From NCBI GenBank assembly GCA_016934645.1, contig JAFGSL010000703.1, forward strand, positions 1 to 7,625: 7,625 nt of DNA. Direction: 5' to 3'. The notes beneath the pieces were generated by a model. That model worked only from the letters and a program-made list of their open reading frames with translations. It was not told the origin of the DNA and made no database searches. Position numbers and translations under genes: made by a program. Position 1 is the stretch's first letter, and the number at the start of each line of letters is the position of its first letter. Positions 1 through 7,625 of the stretch are shown here, piece after piece. The DNA comes from Anaerolineae bacterium. GTDB taxonomy: Bacteria > Chloroflexota > Anaerolineae > B4-G1 > SLSP01.

Positions 1-1356
1 ACCGGCGAAGGGCGCACCGAAAAGCTGCGCCAGTATGCCATTTATCGCAAAATGCTGGCCGAGCACTTCCACCAACCGGAAGACGAAGCGATGCAGCGCG
101 TCGAAGAATTCGAGAAGAATGTCAAGAAGCAATTCGTCGACGAACCCGGGCAGATGAAGCTCCTCATCGTCGTGGATAAACTACTCACCGGCTTCGATGC
201 ACCTCCGGCCACCTATCTCTACATCGACAAACCGATGCAGGACCACGGCCTCTTCCAGGCCATCTGCCGCGTCAACCGGTTGGATGGCGAGGACAAACCC
301 TACGGCTACATCGTGGACTACCGTGATCTGTTTAAGAGCCTGGAAAAATCCATCCAGGACTACACCTCAGAAGCCTTCGATGCCTACGACGAGGAAGACG
401 TGAAGGGCCTACTCACCAATCGTTTGGAAAAGGGCAAGGAACGTCTGGACGATGCCCGCGAGGCCATCAAGGCCCTCTGCGAACCCGTCGCACCGCCCAA
501 GCGTACCGAAGACTACCTGCATTACTTCTGTGCCGCAGATACCACCGACAAAGAGGCGCTCAGCGAGACCGAACCTCGGCGCGTGCTGCTCTACAAACTC
601 ACCGCTTCCCTGGTCCGCGCCTACGCCAACCTCGCCAACGATATGTCCGAAGCCGGTTATACGCCGCAGGAAGCAGAGCAGATCCGGCAAGAAGCCGATT
701 ACTACGACAAAGTACGCCAGGAAGTCCAGATCGCCAGCAACGACTACGTGGACTTCAAGCAATACGAACCCGCGATGCGCCACCTCCTCGATGCTTATAT
801 CCGCGCCGAAGCGAGCCAGAAAATCTCGGCCTTCGACGATATGAGCTTGATCCAGCTCATCGTCGAGCGCGGGGCGGCTGCCGTGGACGAACTCCCGGAG
901 GGCATCCGCACCAGCCCGGAGGCCGTCGCTGAGACCATCGAAAACAACGTCCGTCGCGTCATCATCGACGAACACCCTGTCAACCCCAAGTACTACGACC
1001 GTATGTCCGACCTGCTTGATACGCTGATCCAACAGCGCAAAAAACAAGCCGTTGAATACCAGCAATACCTTGCCAAAGTGGTCGAACTCACGCGCCAAGT
1101 CCATAATCCCGCCACCGGTCCCAGCTACCCGCCCACCCTCAACACTCCTGCCCGCCGTGCCTTCTACGACAACCTGGGCGATGACGTAGACCTCGCCCTC
1201 GCATTGGATACGGCCATCCGCACCACCAAGAAAGCCGAGTGGCGCGGTGACGTCGTCAAAGAGCGCGAGATCAAGTACGCCATCTACCAAGTTGTGAACA
1301 ACGAGGATGAAGTCGAGGCCATCTTTGAACTGGTAAAGAATCAACATGAATATTGA
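1..1356 (+). CDS. hsdR: Type I restriction endonuclease subunit R (HsdR), C-terminal part, 5' end outside window
   Basis: This is the 3' part (451 codons, open at base 1) of the motor/nuclease subunit of a type I restriction-modification complex, which uses ATP to translocate DNA and cuts it far from the recognition site. Seen: superfamily 2 helicase motif V (LLTGFDAP, bases 181-204) and motif VI (QAICRVNR, 256-279), then the usual IVDYRDLF segment. A long helical C-terminal region follows with the family signature VVELTRQVHNP and TPARRAFYDNLGDDVDLAL (about 1078-1200), matching the HsdR C-terminal domain (DUF3387-type). The nuclease domain and Walker motifs lie upstream of the window. The frame is intact to its stop at 1354-1356, with no sign of decay. 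The metallopeptidase gene overlaps its last 11 bases. The hsdM and hsdS partners are not in the window. Identification is strong; the specificity cannot be told. Confidence 0.95.
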   Translation, partial: TGEGRTEKLRQYAIYRKMLAEHFHQPEDEAMQRVEEFEKNVKKQFVDEPGQMKLLIVVDKLLTGFDAPPATYLYIDKPMQDHGLFQAICRVNRLDGEDKPYGYIVDYRDLFKSLEKSIQDYTSEAFDAYDEEDVKGLLTNRLEKGKERLDDAREAIKALCEPVAPPKRTEDYLHYFCAADTTDKEALSETEPRRVLLYKLTASLVRAYANLANDMSEAGYTPQEAEQIRQEADYYDKVRQEVQIASNDYVDFKQYEPAMRHLLDAYIRAEASQKISAFDDMSLIQLIVERGAAAVDELPEGIRTSPEAVAETIENNVRRVIIDEHPVNPKYYDRMSDLLDTLIQQRKKQAVEYQQYLAKVVELTRQVHNPATGPSYPPTLNTPARRAFYDNLGDDVDLALALDTAIRTTKKAEWRGDVVKEREIKYAIYQVVNNEDEVEAIFELVKNQHEY

Positions 1357-2110
1357 ACACTGTACAGACGCAAAATCTTGCGTCTCTCCCAAAATGCACC
1401 AGATCACCGTCAGTGACATCACTGTGGACGTCGTCCGTAAGGACATCAAGAACCTGCATCTGGCCGTCTACCCGCCGGAAGGCCGCGTGCGCGTTGCCGC
1501 GCCGCTGTTAATCGACGATGAGGCCGTGCGTCTGGCCGTCATCTCCAAGTTGGCCTGGATCAAGCGCCAGCAAGCACACTTCCAGAGCCAGGACCGGCAA
1601 TCTGCCCGTGAATACATCAATCGCGAGAGCCACTACTACTGGGGCGACCGCTACCTGCTCAACGTCATCTATCACGATGCACCCCCAGAAGTCGTCGTGC
1701 GTAACGCCCACACCCTCGATCTTTTCGTACGGGAGGGCAGCGATACCGCGCAACGCGAGCGTGTGTTACAGGAATGGTATCGCCAACAGCTCAAGGCGGC
1801 TATCCCGCCGCTCATCGCCAAATGGGAGCCGCGCCTTGACGTCCACGTCGCAGAGTGGTACGTCAAGCGGATGAAGACCAAGTGGGGCACCTGCACCGCC
1901 GAGGCCCGCCGTATCTGGCTCAACCTGGAACTGGTCAAGAAACCGCCCCAGTGCCTGGAATACATCGTCGTTCACGAGATGGTGCATTTGTTAGAGCGGC
2001 ATCACAACGACCGTTTTGTGGCGTATATGGATAAGTTTATGCCCCAGTGGCGGCTGGCACGGGACCTGTTGAATGCCGCGCCCCTGGCGCACGAGACGTG
2101 GGAGTATTGA
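1346..2110 (+). CDS. YgjP-like (M48/DUF45) zinc metallopeptidase
   Basis: A 254-residue cytosolic protein of the YgjP/DUF45 metallopeptidase family (SprT/WLM-like). Seen: HEMVH at residues 210-214 (the HExxH zinc site) with a likely third ligand H220 in HNDRF. The preceding family signature is KWGTC (179-183) followed by IWLNLELVKKPP. No signal peptide or membrane segment is visible. It overlaps the 3' end of hsdR by 11 bp, so translation is probably coupled. Genes of this family are often found directly after type I restriction genes, but their role there is not established. Start: ATG at 1346 is given because of the overlap, but it lacks a good ribosome site. Homology-like sequence (ITVSDITVDVVRKDIKNL) begins only near Met17 at 1394, so the true start could be 1394 (238 residues). 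The enzymatic activity is inferred from the zinc motif; the substrate is unknown. Confidence 0.88.
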   Translation: MNIEHCTDAKSCVSPKMHQITVSDITVDVVRKDIKNLHLAVYPPEGRVRVAAPLLIDDEAVRLAVISKLAWIKRQQAHFQSQDRQSAREYINRESHYYWGDRYLLNVIYHDAPPEVVVRNAHTLDLFVREGSDTAQRERVLQEWYRQQLKAAIPPLIAKWEPRLDVHVAEWYVKRMKTKWGTCTAEARRIWLNLELVKKPPQCLEYIVVHEMVHLLERHHNDRFVAYMDKFMPQWRLARDLLNAAPLAHETWEY

Positions 2111-2276: not shown

Positions 2277-2507
2277 ATGGAGGGCATCTCACCAGACTTA
2301 CACAATCGTCTCACGGGCACATTGTTGCGCTGCGGTCCCTTCGACAGCAACGCCGCTCTGTGTATCACATTCATTGCGGAGCTATGCCAGGATGAGCGGC
2401 TCAAGGTTCGGAGCACCCAGTGGCACTTCTGTGATGCGCTCAAGGTGGGGTATGGGGTGATCGTGCAGGAGGATGCGCTGCCAGGGAGGGATTTGCCTAA
2501 CTTATGA
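2277..2507 (+). CDS. Orphan, truncated EAD-like adaptor domain protein (76 aa)
   Basis: The first ~32 residues match the N-termini of the next two genes: ISPDLHNRLTGTLLRCGPFD followed by SNAAL, against IPAGLQNRL..LLRCAPVDSDAAL (2523 gene) and IPPALYNRL..LLHCGPFATQDAL (4883 gene). After residue 32 the similarity stops. The expected DARI.QW, LP.A.S..ARV and the long C-terminal helices are missing, and neither other forward frame resumes them. The remaining 44 residues are unrecognised. Start ATG 2277 has GGAGG 9 nt upstream. The stop lies 15 nt before the NACHT gene's ATG, so it would be the first gene of the same transcript. It is either a broken third copy of the adaptor or a shortened decoy/leader that is still translated. 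The homology of the N-terminal part is fairly clear; whether the product is functional is not. Confidence 0.55.
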   Translation: MEGISPDLHNRLTGTLLRCGPFDSNAALCITFIAELCQDERLKVRSTQWHFCDALKVGYGVIVQEDALPGRDLPNL

Positions 2508-2522: not shown

Positions 2523-4886
2523 ATGCCGACTATTCCTGCCGGACTTCAAAATCGCCTGCGGCATAGGTTACTGCGTTGTGCACCTGTTGATAGTGATGCT
2601 GCACTTCATGCCGTTTTTAGTGACGCCCGAATTGCACAATGGCAGGATGCAGTACCGCAAGCCGATAGTCCAAGCGCACGTGTGGATCGCCTGATCGCGT
2701 ATCTCGGCGACCATTACAACAGCGGTGGTGAAAGTGCGCTATTGCTCTTTCTGCACGTGCTTTTGGATCACACTTCACCGGCTGACCAATGTTATCAAGA
2801 CCTCTCAGCGCTGATCATATACCTCAAGGATCAACTGGGTGCTGGTGTGCCCAGTTCGCCGCAATGGGAAGCCGCTTTGGCGCGTTACCGTGAAGGTGTC
2901 CGGCAACGTCACGGCACCACCCGCATCTTTGGGCAGCCACGCCCTGTGCCTCTCGATGACATCTTCACCGAGGTCTACATCCACGACCAACCTTCAGCCT
3001 TCCGGCGTTTTGATATCCGCCGGCTACAACAGGATCCGGCACACCTAGAGCAGGCCAAACGAGTCCCCGGTGCGGAGATTTTTCAACAGGAAGGCGGGCA
3101 TCGGCTCTTCATCCTTGGCAAACCCGGTGCAGGGAAGACCACGTTTCTTAAGCATCTGGCTTTCGAGGCAACAAATGATCCACAGGGCAAGGTCCCCATC
3201 TTTGTTATGCTCAAAGATTGGACCGATTCCGGTGCTACCTTGCTGGATTTTATCGTCGAGCAGTTTACGCTTTGCGGATTTCCCAGTGCGGTTCCGTTCC
3301 TTGAACACCTGCTGGCAAACACGGAGGATGCTCTCGTGCTCTTCGATGGACTGGACGAAATCACGCAGGAAGGCGAGCGGCGTAACCGCGCCATCCAGGA
3401 CTTGCGCGACTTCTGTCTCCGCTATCCGCGTGCGCAAGTGCTCATTACTTGCCGTGTCGCTGCCACCGATTACACTTTCGACGCTTTCACCTACGTCGAG
3501 GTGGCCGACTTCACCGGCGAGCAAATTACGGCGTTCGTCAAGAAATGGTTCATCCACAGCCCGGAGAAGAGCGCGTCGTTCTTGCAAGAACTGGAAATGG
3601 AACACAATCGAGGGCTGCGGGAACTGGCGCGCCAACCCTTGCTGCTAGCGATGCTGTGTTTGGCTTTCAACGATGCCCTCACCTTCCCGCAGCGTCGCGT
3701 CGAAATCTACCACGATGCTTTGGATGCTTTACTGCGCAAGTGGGACAGCTCGCGCAACATCCGCCGCGCTCCTATATATGAGGGACTTTCTATTGGCCGA
3801 AAGCACCAGCTTTTCGCCCGTATCGCAGCGCAGGCTTTTGAGCTGGGTGAGTACTTTCTCCCGCAGACGACGTTGGAGCATGACATTGCTGTATATCTCC
3901 AACGCTTGCCCCGTGCGGATGCTGTCAATACCACCGACTTTGATGTGGTGGCTGTGCTCCAGGCCATCGCTGCGCAACATGGTGTCCTGGTTGAGCGGGC
4001 GCATCGCATCTATAGCTTCGCACACTTGACGTTTCAGGAATACTACACGGCACACTACGTTGTGCAATCAACGGCGAGTGGTGATAGTGGAGCCATCAGA
4101 CGGCTGCTCACTCATGCTGCCGACGCTCGTTGGCGAGAGGTGATTCTTTTGACGGCGAGTATGCTAGATGATGCGGATGACTTTTCGGCACATTTCATGG
4201 ATGCATTGGATGCTATAGCGCACGACGATGATAAACTAGCGACCTTTTTAGCTTGGGCACAGCGTAAAGCCGCCACGGTCCAGGCATCCTATCACCCCGC
4301 CGCTGTACGGGCGTATTATGCTTATCTCAACCTTGCTCTTTATCCATCCCTTTTCTTTGGCCTCAACCGAGATCATGTTTTCTCTTTTGATATCTCTCTG
4401 GATTTAAACATTGAACTTACTATTCGCATTGGGACCTCAGGACTTCCCACCACAGAGGCTCAAGATTCAATTTTCTTCAGTCTCGCTAACGCTTTTGAAC
4501 TTGTTCGCGCACTCGACCTCAATCTCGCTCACGCTCTTGCCCGCGACCGTGACCTCAGCATTGCTGTCTTTCTCAATCGTGACCTTGCCAAAGAACTTGA
4601 TCTCAAAGATTTGCACCGGACACTTACAGCCTTTGATCCTCTCACTGAAAATGTGCATAATGTGGCCGGGCAAGACTTTGCAGCACAACTTCATACTAAC
4701 ATTGTTGAAAATTATGACATTGGCTATGATTGGGATTTTACCGAAGAACAAGCAAGAGCGATGGAACATTACTTCACTGCTGCCAACCTCCTCGTCGAAT
4801 GTCTCGACGTTGCCTACGTCACTGACCGCGCCACTATCGAAGACCGCCTGCTACTGCCGCCCACACCCCAGGAGTCGCCAGCATGA
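2523..4886 (+). CDS. EAD-like adaptor–NACHT STAND NTPase
   Basis: A 787-residue cytosolic STAND-class ATPase switch. Domains: (a) residues 1-~105, a helical adaptor domain shared with the genes at 2277 and 4883 (NRL..LLRC, FSDARIAQW, SPSARVDRLIAYL, ALLLFLHVLL), resembling the effector-associated domains of prokaryotic conflict systems; the exact EAD class cannot be assigned here. (b) A linker with PLDDIFTEVYI (143-153), typical just before NACHT. (c) NACHT: Walker A GKPGAGKTT (199-207, K205), Walker B LVLFDGLDE (271-279), sensor-like VLITCR (306-311), and the winged-helix hallmark FAHLTFQEYYTAHYVV starting at 499. (d) A helical C-terminal part with Asp-Leu-rich repeats (DLNIEL near 626; 664-697), probably a sensor region comparable to short NACHT-associated C-terminal domains. 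No nuclease, TIR or protease domain is seen, so the effector must be recruited. The start is supported by AAGGAG. It overlaps the next gene by 4 bp (ATGA). A role in antiphage defence is inferred from family and context. Confidence 0.9.
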   Translation: MPTIPAGLQNRLRHRLLRCAPVDSDAALHAVFSDARIAQWQDAVPQADSPSARVDRLIAYLGDHYNSGGESALLLFLHVLLDHTSPADQCYQDLSALIIYLKDQLGAGVPSSPQWEAALARYREGVRQRHGTTRIFGQPRPVPLDDIFTEVYIHDQPSAFRRFDIRRLQQDPAHLEQAKRVPGAEIFQQEGGHRLFILGKPGAGKTTFLKHLAFEATNDPQGKVPIFVMLKDWTDSGATLLDFIVEQFTLCGFPSAVPFLEHLLANTEDALVLFDGLDEITQEGERRNRAIQDLRDFCLRYPRAQVLITCRVAATDYTFDAFTYVEVADFTGEQITAFVKKWFIHSPEKSASFLQELEMEHNRGLRELARQPLLLAMLCLAFNDALTFPQRRVEIYHDALDALLRKWDSSRNIRRAPIYEGLSIGRKHQLFARIAAQAFELGEYFLPQTTLEHDIAVYLQRLPRADAVNTTDFDVVAVLQAIAAQHGVLVERAHRIYSFAHLTFQEYYTAHYVVQSTASGDSGAIRRLLTHAADARWREVILLTASMLDDADDFSAHFMDALDAIAHDDDKLATFLAWAQRKAATVQASYHPAAVRAYYAYLNLALYPSLFFGLNRDHVFSFDISLDLNIELTIRIGTSGLPTTEAQDSIFFSLANAFELVRALDLNLAHALARDRDLSIAVFLNRDLAKELDLKDLHRTLTAFDPLTENVHNVAGQDFAAQLHTNIVENYDIGYDWDFTEEQARAMEHYFTAANLLVECLDVAYVTDRATIEDRLLLPPTPQESPA

Positions 4887-5950
4887 GCATCCCCCCCGCG
4901 CTGTACAATCGCCTGCGCACCACGCTGCTACACTGTGGCCCATTCGCCACGCAAGATGCGCTCGAAGCTGTTTTCGTGGATGCGCGTATCAGCCAGTGGG
5001 CCGCAGATCTACCGGAAGCTCGCAGCGATGGTGCGCGAGTCCAGGCAACCATCAAATATCTGTTAGGAAAGCGAGACGATAACGACGCGCACGCCCTCAT
5101 CCTGTTATTGCGAGTGCTCCGCGAGCAGATTCCCTCCACAGATGCACGACACCAGGAACTTGCCGACTTAGCCGATGAACTCGCAATGATAGTTCTAGAA
5201 GATAAAATACAGTACCAGCCAACAGACAGACCAAAGAGAAAGTCCTTTTGGACACGCATCGTCAACGCCTTTCGATATCCGGTATGGCTAGGTATATCCA
5301 TTGTGGCAGCAATTCCGGCTTTGATCTTAATATGGTCGATAATACAGACTCCGTCGACATCTCCAACACCTACTCAGACACCCACATATACCTCGACGCC
5401 CACTTTAATGCCTGTCACACAGGCTACCCCGACAACGATGTTCACGCCAGAGGCTGTGCAAATCCCAACCAATACTCCCCCGGCCACATTTACCCCATCA
5501 TCGACACCTGATCCTTGTATGAAAGAAGAAAAAAACGGCAACGGCGGTACCGACATCATTACACTCCCAGGGGATGAGTGCTTTGGCAACAGGATTCAAA
5601 TTGATCTACTGGTGAGGGGAACAATCTATGGATTTTCTTTTTGGGAAGTACAAGCTTATGGGCCTGACGATTCCGAAATGCAGAACCCTCTCATCACAAA
5701 AGACGATATCGTCTGCGCGTCTTCGATCCAAGAGCAGAATTTAGGTTACTATCATCCAGGCAAAGCGATCGATACAGACCTGTCATCTCGCTGGTCCAGT
5801 GAGCCGAATGAACCAGAAAGTTTTATCATTATTCTTTCTGAACCCAAGTACATCAAATCCATAGTGGTGACGTGGCAAGAGGCGTTTGCCGTAAAGTATC
5901 GAATCACTGTAAGTAACAAAGATGAAGAATGTCCTTATGAATTACCCTGA
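4883..5950 (+). CDS. EAD-like adaptor–TM–Thr/Pro stalk–discoidin-like (F5/8C) membrane protein
   Basis: A 355-residue putative single-pass membrane protein. Residues 1-~105 are the same adaptor domain as in the NACHT gene (NRL..LLHCGPF, VFVDARISQW, LPEARSDGARV, IKYLL, ALILLLRVLR). A basic stretch (117-131, PKRKSFWTRIVNAFR) precedes a hydrophobic helix at about 133-154, which by the positive-inside rule puts the adaptor in the cytosol. Residues 156-211 are a Thr/Pro/Ser stalk. Residues 212-355 hold discoidin/F5-8C-like sequence in unusual order: first the family's C-terminal third (GGTDIITLPG at 221, RGTIYGFSFWEVQAYG at 245-260), then its N-terminal two-thirds (CASS at 278, AIDTDLSSRWSS at 295-306, IKSIVVTWQEAFAVKYRITVS at 324-344). 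Cysteines at 212, 233, 278 and 350 could form disulfides. Start ATG overlaps the NACHT stop (ATGA) with AGGAG at 4870-4874. Inferred role: surface sensor that signals to the NACHT protein through the shared adaptor. Confidence 0.82.
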   Translation: MSIPPALYNRLRTTLLHCGPFATQDALEAVFVDARISQWAADLPEARSDGARVQATIKYLLGKRDDNDAHALILLLRVLREQIPSTDARHQELADLADELAMIVLEDKIQYQPTDRPKRKSFWTRIVNAFRYPVWLGISIVAAIPALILIWSIIQTPSTSPTPTQTPTYTSTPTLMPVTQATPTTMFTPEAVQIPTNTPPATFTPSSTPDPCMKEEKNGNGGTDIITLPGDECFGNRIQIDLLVRGTIYGFSFWEVQAYGPDDSEMQNPLITKDDIVCASSIQEQNLGYYHPGKAIDTDLSSRWSSEPNEPESFIIILSEPKYIKSIVVTWQEAFAVKYRITVSNKDEECPYELP

Positions 5951-6074
5951 ACCACAACGTCCGCCCCACACCGCTACCATCCGCATCATAGACCGCGCCG
6001 CCATCGAAGATCGCCTACTGCTTCCGCCTGGGCGGGAGGCGACAGAAGCAACGCATAGGGAGGAACTGGATTGA
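5937..6074 (+). pseudogene. Remnant: C-terminal tail of a second NACHT paralogue (45 codons)
   Basis: An open frame from ATG 5937 (overlapping the previous gene by 14 bp in another frame) to TGA 6074. Its middle, DRAAIEDRLLLPP (5991-6029), matches the extreme C-terminus of the NACHT protein, DRATIEDRLLLPP (4824-4862), at 12 of 13 residues. At the DNA level 32 of 39 bases agree, and the only amino-acid change is T to A. The rest of a NACHT protein is absent upstream; the membrane-protein gene occupies that place. Best read as the leftover end of a duplicated adaptor-NACHT gene whose core was replaced. It might still be translated as a small peptide, but no clear ribosome site stands before 5937, and the ATG may be chance. 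Confidence 0.65.
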
Positions 6075-6385: not shown

Positions 6386-6432
6386 AAATTCTTTATAAAG
6401 AATTTTCGAGGCCACATCACTCCTACTCGCGT
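6386..6432 (+). repeat. AT palindrome plus ACTCGCGT box, copy 2
   Basis: AAATTCTTTATAAAGAATTT (6386-6405) is a perfect 20-bp palindrome. It is followed by AGGC and then ACTCGCGT (6425-6432), 29-30 bp from the dyad centre, in the same order and orientation as copy 1 at 2189-2238. The ACTCGCGT here is itself part of a small dyad (TACTC-GCGT-GAGTA). The two copies bracket the whole adaptor/NACHT/membrane module (about 4.2 kb). Confidence 0.65.
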
Positions 6433-6701: not shown

Positions 6702-7544
6702 ATGGAACAAATACTCAGGATTGACACTTCCCCCCAGCTATTCTTCGAATGGCTAGAGCAAGCAACTATGTACCTGGATCCCAACTACCCCCATCACCCG
6801 GCTGAGCCAACATACCGAATCATATTGCAGCCATCCACCGATGAGAAATACACATTAGAGTGGGCACCGGGAATGCATAGTGCTATTCCATTCCTTATGC
6901 GGCGACATCAACCATATTATGATACCGTTGAATTTGAGCACATTCCGCCAATGACACTACTTATATCCGCAATTGCTCTTTTTGATTCGCCACAAACCGC
7001 GACAGTGCAAAATGCTATTTGGCTCTATGTTGAGGAACGTAAACCGGAAGGGGTCAAAGTTACGCTTCAGTGTAAATTCAACAAGGTTAATGAATATTTC
7101 CTGGAACTGCTGAGGTCGTTTGCAGATCGATGGGAACACTTAAGAAAGCAGATGGAAGCGGAATTCTTACCAGATATGCTTAGGCTGGCAAAAACTGAAA
7201 CTGAGCGAGAAGAATATGAAGCCTATTTGATAGATGTACAAGTTATCTCCGAACCGCAAGAGTCATCAGCAGAAAGCCCCAAAATTGATAGATCGTTCCG
7301 CCAACTTTCAGCCGATTTCCAAAACCTTTTCGAGCGAATCAGTCGCAAATTAGATGTCCTGATTGCAATGCAAGAGAGTTCCCCACCACAGGTGCAAATA
7401 CCTACTTCTGAGCAAAGCAAGACAAGCCAGCCGGTACTTACAATTGAAAAACTGCCACCTCCCCCCGACATCACGGCCCCTACCGACGAATGGTTTGAAT
7501 GGTTTCATCTTATCACAGAAGAATATAGACGAAAAGACATGTAG
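6702..7544 (+). CDS. Unrecognised protein, C-terminus truncated by IS insertion
   Basis: 280 residues, start ATG with GAGG 9 nt upstream; I do not recognise the family. Visible: residues 1-~130 look globular alpha/beta (FFEWLEQATMYL; then YRIILQPS and VKVTLQCKF as strand-like segments). Helices rich in charged residues span 131-178 (YFLELLRSFADRWEHLRKQM..). An acidic/polar linker (182-196) follows, then an amphipathic helix at 198-224 (FRQLSADFQNLFERISRKLDVL), a Pro/Gln/Ser-rich linker (228-262), and the beginning of another domain (DEWFEWFHLITEEYRR, 262-277). No signal peptide or membrane helix. The stop TAG at 7542-7544 lies inside the left end of an IS element, so the natural C-terminus is lost. 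The amphipathic helix may serve multimerisation (inference). It lies outside the adaptor module and has its own upstream regulatory sites; a defence role is possible but unsupported. Confidence 0.7.
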   Translation: MEQILRIDTSPQLFFEWLEQATMYLDPNYPHHPAEPTYRIILQPSTDEKYTLEWAPGMHSAIPFLMRRHQPYYDTVEFEHIPPMTLLISAIALFDSPQTATVQNAIWLYVEERKPEGVKVTLQCKFNKVNEYFLELLRSFADRWEHLRKQMEAEFLPDMLRLAKTETEREEYEAYLIDVQVISEPQESSAESPKIDRSFRQLSADFQNLFERISRKLDVLIAMQESSPPQVQIPTSEQSKTSQPVLTIEKLPPPPDITAPTDEWFEWFHLITEEYRRKDM

Positions 7545-7625
7545 TGCGCCCCCAAAGTTGGACAGGTTAGAAAATGAACTATCATGTCAAACAACGGAGG
7601 GCAAAAATGACACGACGACGGACAT
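7540..7625 (+). mobile_element. Left end of an IS3-family-like insertion sequence (continues past window)
   Basis: The stretch from TGTAGTG (7540) through CCCCCAAAGTTGGACA (7549-7564) matches the look of terminal inverted repeats of IS3-family (IS150-like) elements, which begin with TG and contain AAAGTTGGACA. It is followed after about 40 bp by a Shine-Dalgarno and an ORF starting MTRRRT, typical of orfA of such elements. The right end and the target-site duplication are outside the window, so the exact border is approximate by a few bases. Confidence 0.75.
7607..7625 (+). CDS. IS transposase OrfA, N-terminus only
   Basis: ATG at 7607 with GGAGG at 7596-7600 (6-nt spacing); only MTRRRT is visible before the window ends. 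The basic start and its position behind an IS3-like terminal repeat point to the small helix-turn-helix protein OrfA, which is normally made alone and as an OrfAB fusion by programmed frameshifting. Six residues cannot prove this; the call depends on the terminal repeat. Confidence 0.6.

Follow-up and report, generated by a model that had tools for sequence, protein, structure and literature searches.

Can a bacterial NACHT switch be informed of what happens outside the cell? The question is raised by two overlapping genes in a stretch of 7,625 nucleotides from an Anaerolineae bacterium (Chloroflexota, contig JAFGSL010000703.1), which we call the window. The first gene encodes a STAND protein with a NACHT domain (P0001), and the second encodes a partner (P0002) in which the same N-terminal adaptor is followed by a predicted membrane helix, a stalk, and a discoidin-like ectodomain. 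We favor, with belief and doubt close to balance, a two-gene death-adaptor/NACHT conflict system, in which the cytosolic adaptor of a glycan-binding surface partner would contact the NACHT switch and relay a signal from outside. The domain order, the predicted topology, the permutation of the discoidin, the recurrence of the layout, the restriction-modification setting, and the signs of a replaced gene body are computed results.

A death-like adaptor in two overlapping genes

The first-pass annotation had described two genes overlapping by ATGA that begin with a common adaptor, one of them continuing into a NACHT ATPase, and our results agree. The genes (2523-4886 and 4883-5950) share the ATGA, and their N termini are 41% identical across 108 residues (E 5e-18). 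Both adaptors match Pfam PF20689 (bDLD1, bacterial Death-like domain 1, or EAD3) above its cut-off of 25 bits, which rules out an unnamed domain. The layout of EAD systems is present, with one bDLD1 on the core switch NTPase and a second one in the same operon. In these systems, Kaur et al. proposed that adaptor copies bridge the NTPase core and its partner by homotypic contacts (PMC7159879, PMC8195603). Hence, since bDLD1 starts both genes, an adaptor-mediated coupling of the NACHT protein to its partner would follow the published EAD principle (PMC8195603, PMC7159879). One element of these systems is missing: their second adaptor copy is fused to an effector or signaling domain, in most cases an enzyme, and the bDLD1 of the partner has only the discoidin behind the helix and the stalk.

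The NACHT protein has NACHT and NCH2 domains above the Pfam cut-offs (Table 1), and the motifs GKPGAGKTT (Walker A) and LVLFDGLDE (Walker B) are visible in its sequence. The Pfam search found no effector domain in it, and its scores lie below the NCBIfam equivalog cut-offs for the antiphage proteins EruA (33 against 1000 bits) and DS8 (26.5 against 790 bits). In PHROGs it matches two unnamed families and, weakly, "ATPase." The NACHT-NCH2 chassis is common, 1474 of 7995 scored candidate proteins matching at E 0.001, and a plasmid search with the NACHT protein gave 207 records. Close relatives from named organisms in the protein searches include Anaerolineae. Our own bDLD1 profile matches 17 of the 126 proteins of the chassis set (the partner, a remnant, and P0006 included) and our own EAD7 profile matches two (P0023 and P0070), so that the same chassis takes both adaptors of the membrane proteins described below. 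Between the core and NCH2, at 4250-4850, the G+C content of the gene falls to 0.46-0.50. This region codes for repeated Leu-Asp-rich units, strongly divergent among relatives, and is perhaps the variable sensing part of the protein.

On which side of the membrane would the two ends of the partner lie? A basic patch, a membrane helix near residues 133-154, and a Thr/Pro stalk had been expected, and all three were recovered, the helix as a prediction. The sole hydrophobic segment is at residues 136-154 (19-residue Kyte-Doolittle mean of 2.53), preceded by seven K/R in residues 101-135 and followed by none in the stalk (residues 156-205). By the positive-inside rule, this asymmetry would place the bDLD1 in the cytosol and the C-terminal end outside, and we predict a single-pass, N-in/C-out membrane protein. 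The flank of the helix that faces the adaptor is likewise the richer one in K/R in all eight membrane EAD proteins examined (including L152, described below). The helices come from one hydropathy scan, in which false calls are likely (e.g., inside the bDLD1 of L113). PHROGs gave one unnamed family across the helix-stalk part of the partner. Its cysteines are at residue 18 and, in the ectodomain, at residues 212, 233, 278, and 350.

The permuted discoidin and its relatives

What would such a protein expose? The earlier proposal of a discoidin-like domain holds in that Pfam F5/8 type C matches the partner above the cut-off (29.8 against 28.2 bits), and it fails for the canonical form of the domain, whose halves are swapped here. 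The Pfam match spans positions 8-74 of the 127 in the profile and lies at the very end of the protein. Against PDB sequences, residues 76-143 of the ectodomain correspond to 2rv9 16-81, and residues 14-57 correspond to 2rv9 95-136. The chains matched (2rv9, 4zxe, 2rva, 4zz5, and 4zy9; E 4e-9 to 7e-9) are named Glucanase or Glucanase/Chitosanase, and we take them to be discoidin/CBM32 modules. Exchanging the halves gives one continuous match to 2rv9 16-136, with scores rising from 39.7 to 42.4 bits for 2rv9 and from 39.3 to 43.2 bits for 2rva, and the Pfam match then reaches profile position 111 of 127 (from 32.4 to 33.4 bits). The gain is small because the unswapped score already adds both pieces; the order is what matters. 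As judged from these alignments, the discoidin of the partner is circularly permuted, with the C-terminal half before the N-terminal half.

How common is this order? Half-domain profiles, built from the four permuted proteins themselves, were run over 1265 open reading frames (ORFs) of the fetched loci and gave 45 rows with both halves, in which overlapping loci repeat proteins. The N half comes first in 36 rows (N-C, its repeats, and one N-N-C), eight rows (four distinct proteins) have only the C half followed by the N half, and in one (L231) N-C is preceded by a weak C fragment. The ectodomain as a mere truncated discoidin was rejected, both halves being present once, swapped, and in the same way in four proteins. 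Tandem discoidins (e.g., in an Embleya protein) show C-N order where two units meet, and the permutation could have arisen from such an array. Among the matches listed in our literature searches, we found no paper on a permuted discoidin or CBM32 domain, and a scan of viral contigs for the permuted domain gave no confirmed match. Plasmid searches gave one record when the partner was the query, a tandem discoidin by its ORF, and 20 records when the query was the secreted-looking permuted protein described below. Overall, the plasmid matches were discoidin and NACHT proteins, among which only the record obtained with the partner was inspected for the gene pair.

The ectodomain matched 21 of 386 class genomes, and a two-row alignment matched 31 of 395 phylum genomes; permuted order was judged by motif order and profiles in the loci fetched, rather than in every match, and there it marked only the proteins described here. 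Two further membrane proteins carry the permuted domain behind another adaptor. The first (L191:9169-10905, minus strand, genome G566), of 578 residues, consists of EAD7 (69 bits, cut-off 32), a helix, a stalk, an FRG1-like segment (24.6 bits, below the cut-off of 27), a second stalk, and the permuted discoidin. Its gene lies in a Mod/Res locus. On one side is a DNA methylase gene (N6_N4_Mtase, 98.3 bits), and on the other, beyond one ORF of 228 residues, is a ResIII gene (41.5 bits). The same genome has 14 EAD7 matches, several on proteins in which we read a STAND-like P-loop region. The second protein (L229:715-2742, plus strand, genome G028), of 675 residues, has an EAD7-like adaptor (23.7 bits, below the cut-off of 32; a G566-derived profile gives 35 bits), a helix, a stalk, a PD40 propeller, and the permuted discoidin. 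It is encoded 22 bases 3' of an HsdS-like gene (Methylase_S, 37.8 bits, cut-off 22). Directly downstream is the gene of a small, secreted-looking protein that has the permuted discoidin as its only domain (L229:2932-3672) and could be a soluble decoy or co-receptor; an NB-ARC-TPR gene lies farther along.

A restriction-modification gene is nearby in all three loci that have the permuted ectodomain on an EAD-helix protein (the window, L191, and L229). As a rough yardstick, a methylase-like [DNS]PP[YFW] ORF occurs within 4 kb of 5 of 65 bDLD1 ORFs, at least one of these being false (the neighbor of L149 is a peptidase). With so few loci, and with a yardstick based on a different test, the association is suggestive only.

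We also searched genomes for bDLD1 itself (PF20689, E 0.001). Positive genomes were 2 of the 17 behind the first loci and 3 of 400 in the phylum; 11 of 24 in the family, 11 of 48 in the order, and 19 of 396 in the class of G002; 1 of 7 and 3 of 25 in two other orders; and 1 of 292 in the phylum of G013 (Aliterella, a cyanobacterium). The family, order, class, and phylum sets based on G002 refer to locus L002 (Chloroflexi bacterium S1bins155). The sets overlap, the order set containing the family set and the class (396) and phylum (400) sets being draws, and the counts are not additive. The 65 bDLD1 ORFs that we read include the two of the window and leave out two hits in G996 as well as L128 and L131, loci with bDLD1 hits in which no bDLD1 ORF passed the length filter; ORFs were chosen by length, and some starts may be wrong. 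Besides the window, five of the 65 have, next to bDLD1, a single inner helix and another outer module. This is FGE in L149 (178.3 bits, with a T/P stalk), a propeller repeat in L126 (30.4 bits, beside a DUF1156 methylase gene), TPR in L150, and a part without further Pfam match over the cut-off in L105. The fifth (L152:2372-4306) runs from a signal-peptide-like start through two DUF4397 stretches and a linker to a helix (480-498) and a C-terminal bDLD1 (36.5 bits), with a basic patch behind the helix (seven K/R after it and two before it); as read from the matches, this is the domain order of animal death receptors. No NACHT-profile ORF was found among the two ORFs on each side of these five proteins, L149 lying 134 bases from its contig end. 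The genome of L149 has a bDLD1-NACHT-HEAT protein (L111), whose bDLD1 scores 24.6 bits, about the cut-off.

The adaptor also occurs in other arrangements. One protein (L107:5930-8005, G591) combines SEFIR/TIR-like, CHAT, and C-terminal bDLD1 domains. Two overlapping tandem bDLD1 genes (L114:1995-6114, G012) encode 489 and 887 residues, with scores below the Pfam cut-off. A bDLD1 phosphorylase-like protein and a bDLD1 STAND-WD40-like protein (L145:6016-12367, G618) are near the apoptosome layout, as read from the sequence. Finally, a bDLD1 ORF and two EAD1 ORFs stand in a row (L110:87-3812, G595), the last with a NACHT-type match, and EAD1 matches are also found inside the bDLD1 ORF.

Origin and possible roles of the partner

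Where could the partner come from? In a tree of 78 bDLD1s, its copy groups with the NACHT-borne P0004, P0005, and P0039 (support 98/83) and the copy of the NACHT gene groups with P0008 (97/86); this tree is based on few columns, and its bootstrap had not converged. Downstream of the partner, positions 5986-6028 are 81% identical to the NACHT tail (4819-4861) and read DRAAIEDRLLLPP, as in P0039. The G+C content is 0.61 over the bDLD1 of the partner (4850-5149), 0.44-0.52 over its body, and 0.52 over the tail. The NACHT-borne kin, the 3' NACHT tail, and the G+C content together point to a bDLD1-NACHT gene with a replaced body. The partner is probably such a gene, in which the helix, stalk, and ectodomain would have taken the place of the body while the NACHT tail stayed 3' of them.

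How would the pair work? The partner would be a membrane protein with a cytosolic bDLD1, and the stalk would hold the permuted, CBM32-like discoidin outside, where it probably binds a glycan or another surface ligand. Once the ectodomain is engaged or clustered, the cytosolic bDLD1 could seed contacts with other bDLD1 copies, by which the bDLD1-NACHT protein would be recruited to the membrane or licensed there, and NACHT would then oligomerize and trigger a response. The first-pass annotation had suggested extracellular binding relayed inward. The outward half of this suggestion is strengthened by the predicted topology, by the ligand-binding type of the domain, and by a layout that recurs with the permuted discoidin (two proteins) and, with other modules, on bDLD1 (five); the ligand, the bDLD1-bDLD1 contact, the direction of signaling, and the output are what we infer. 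A wider proposal, about which our doubts outweigh our confidence, is that Chloroflexota have death-receptor-like proteins. These would carry a cytosolic death-like or EAD adaptor and, joined to it by a helix and a stalk, one of several interchangeable outer domains (DUF4397, FGE, FRG1-like, propeller, or circularly permuted discoidin), in either N-to-C order. They would sense the exterior of the cell and signal to NACHT/STAND proteins, some in restriction-modification islands, having been made by body replacement in adaptor-NACHT genes.

Several results weigh against the relay of an outside signal. The exact gene pair was found nowhere else in the overlapping genome sets searched with bDLD1, and among about 5.8 billion proteins there was no full-length relative of the partner. 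The two bDLD1 copies of the window lie in separate supported subclades, against the published tendency of adjacent EAD copies to close kinship, which together with their identity of only 41% suggests that each may prefer another partner. The predicted topology is based on a hydropathy scan and charge. Moreover, one bDLD1 protein has two hydrophobic segments and no ectodomain (L146:8756-9454) and a bDLD1-nSTAND1 protein has four hydrophobic segments (L153), hence a tie of bDLD1 to the membrane need not imply an ectodomain. Finally, bDLD is among the EADs proposed mainly to recruit effectors (PMC7159879), in which case the partner would be an output. We also considered a widespread partner family and rejected it: full-length and adaptor-only searches gave three other proteins, all of them bDLD1 matches. 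A scan of genome contigs with a bDLD1 alignment gave no confirmed match.

Could the partner then be the effector? The C-terminal region of the NACHT protein would sense a cytosolic invader, and a ring of bDLD1 would recruit the partner and cluster its helix, so that the membrane is damaged or the surface is marked. The proposed role of bDLD in effector recruitment, the lack of a Pfam effector domain in the NACHT protein, and the membrane hairpin of L146 would fit such a role. However, an effector made of a helix needs no stalked lectin-type ectodomain, and this one is kept permuted in three loci, with FRG1-like or propeller modules, which makes us regard the effector role as unlikely. A passive anchor is another unlikely alternative, in which the partner holds NACHT at the envelope or at cell-cell contacts by binding self glycans and sensing is cytosolic. 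The same topology data would be expected for an anchor, a carbohydrate-binding fold could bind self wall polymers, L153 exemplifies a bDLD1-STAND protein with its own membrane helices, and bDLD3 is reported to be enriched in multicellular bacteria (PMC8195603). On the other hand, EAD membrane proteins differ in their outer modules, which fits a range of ligands better than a constant anchor. Lastly, the partner as a functionless fusion, in which the bDLD1 of a decayed NACHT gene was joined by chance to a surface-protein fragment with half-discoidins torn from a tandem array, is in keeping with the NACHT-tail remnant and truncated bDLD1 that flank the pair, with the drop in G+C, and with the C-N joints of tandem discoidins, but seems improbable given the intact frame with its Shine-Dalgarno-like AGGAG (4870-4874) and ATGA coupling and the presence of the same unit, with similar ends, in three further proteins, one of them small and secreted-looking.

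Known systems and the surroundings of the pair

Is the relay of an outside signal to a NACHT switch by such a partner already described? The adaptor, the NACHT domain, and the coupling principle are known, and the outward-facing partner looks new. In the literature searched, we found no description of outward-facing adaptor proteins with a permuted discoidin, and the figures and supplements of Kaur et al., outside this scope, may show such proteins. The EAD systems of Kaur et al. (PMC7159879, PMC8195603) are alike in the adaptor family, in having one copy on the NTPase core and another on a neighboring gene, and in the proposed homotypic bridging. They differ in that here the second copy comes with a membrane helix and an ectodomain and no enzyme, the adjacent copies are not close kin, and no MoxR-vWA core was seen in the window. 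The bDLD3-NPCBM and bDLD3-FGS systems (PMC8195603) also combine a death-like adaptor with a discoidin-like or C-type-lectin-like domain. Their lectin-like domains are termed intracellular sensors (PMC8195603), whereas here the helix and stalk would place the domain outside and the discoidin is permuted.

Other systems share the outward orientation. Among the C-type lectin (CLec)/STAND proteins diversified by diversity-generating retroelements, some targets are predicted to be periplasmic, and extracytoplasmic sensing in STAND systems has been suggested (PMC10907252). There, the retroelement-diversified sensor is part of the STAND protein (PMC10907252), whereas here a death-like adaptor is common to two proteins. 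The EACC2-caspase proteins that end in CHASE2 similarly associate the transmembrane helices of a conflict system with an extracellular small-molecule-binding domain (PMC8195603). Their constant part is EACC2-caspase, linked to TRADD-N genes, unlike the stand-alone death-like adaptor here. RsgI anti-sigma factors are membrane proteins that sense substrates and signal inward, but their cytosolic part is an anti-sigma factor that signals by proteolysis, unlike the bDLD1 of the partner (PMC12203970). Animal death receptors such as TNFR1 and Fas, with TRADD/FADD, have a ligand-type ectodomain, one helix, a cytosolic death-fold domain, and a death-fold partner (PMC8195603). In comparison, the partner of the window runs in the reverse N-to-C direction (L152 follows the receptor order) and has a lectin-like ectodomain and a NACHT partner, and its resemblance to these receptors would be functional only. 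Should the outward-facing members signal, an extracellular input arm like that of animal death receptors would be open to bacterial NLR-type switches, and the sensing of invaders before entry could be addressed with one small two-gene system. The permuted discoidin provides a sequence handle to find further such proteins.

Around the pair, all the genes of the window are on the plus strand (Table 1), and a ribosome-binding-like AAGGAG (2511-2516) lies ahead of the start of the NACHT gene.

Table 1. Positions of the genes, domains, and remnants of the window
Feature	Positions	Strand	Basis
C-terminal part of type I restriction subunit HsdR (context)	1..1356	+	PADLOC REase_I, 596.9 bits
YgjP-like metallopeptidase (context)	1346..2110	+	Pfam, 205.6 bits
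Third bDLD1 copy, truncated, first ~35 residues match	2277..2507	+	Pfam 14.1 bits, E 0.06, below cut-off; own bDLD1 profile E 8.6e-8, aa 4-35
bDLD1-NACHT-NCH2 STAND protein, 787 aa (P0001)	2523..4886	+	Pfam matches, see domain rows
bDLD1 of NACHT protein, aa 4-98	2532..2816	+	Pfam 32.5 bits, E 1.1e-7
NACHT domain, aa 194-345	3102..3557	+	66.2 bits, cut-off 26.7, E 4e-18
NCH2 C-terminal helical domain, aa 709-779	4647..4859	+	Pfam 53.4 bits, above cut-off, E 3e-14
Partner gene, bDLD1, predicted membrane helix, stalk, permuted discoidin, 355 aa (P0002)	4883..5950	+	Pfam, hydropathy, PDB-sequence matches
bDLD1 of partner, aa 3-100	4889..5182	+	Pfam 44.7 bits
Predicted membrane helix, aa 136-154, behind basic patch	5288..5344	+	hydropathy, charge
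T/P/S-rich stalk, aa 156-205	5348..5497	+	33 of 50 residues T, P, or S
Discoidin (F5/8C) C-terminal half, placed first, aa 215-260	5525..5662	+	matches 2rv9 residues 95-136
Discoidin N-terminal half, placed second, aa 277-349	5711..5929	+	matches 2rv9 residues 16-81
NACHT-NCH2 gene 3' tail remnant, reads DRAAIEDRLLLPP	5986..6028	+	repeat, 81% to 4819-4861
280-residue protein	6702..7544	+	no Pfam match over cut-off

The 280-residue protein is encoded in low-G+C DNA, and searches of PHROGs, NCBIfam, and PADLOC gave no match within the limits applied. Scans of the window for tRNA and Rfam families gave no match. The sequence 3' of this gene (7545-7625), which had no match in plasmids, reads gcgcccccaaagttggacagg followed by an ORF start, MTRRR; it looks like the terminus of an IS3-type element. 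A repeat of 21 bases, close to a palindrome, occurs at 2191-2211 and 6386-6406 (95% identity, 4.2 kb apart) and brackets the whole adaptor cassette; the two copies are possibly a cassette boundary, a terminator, or a small mobile element.

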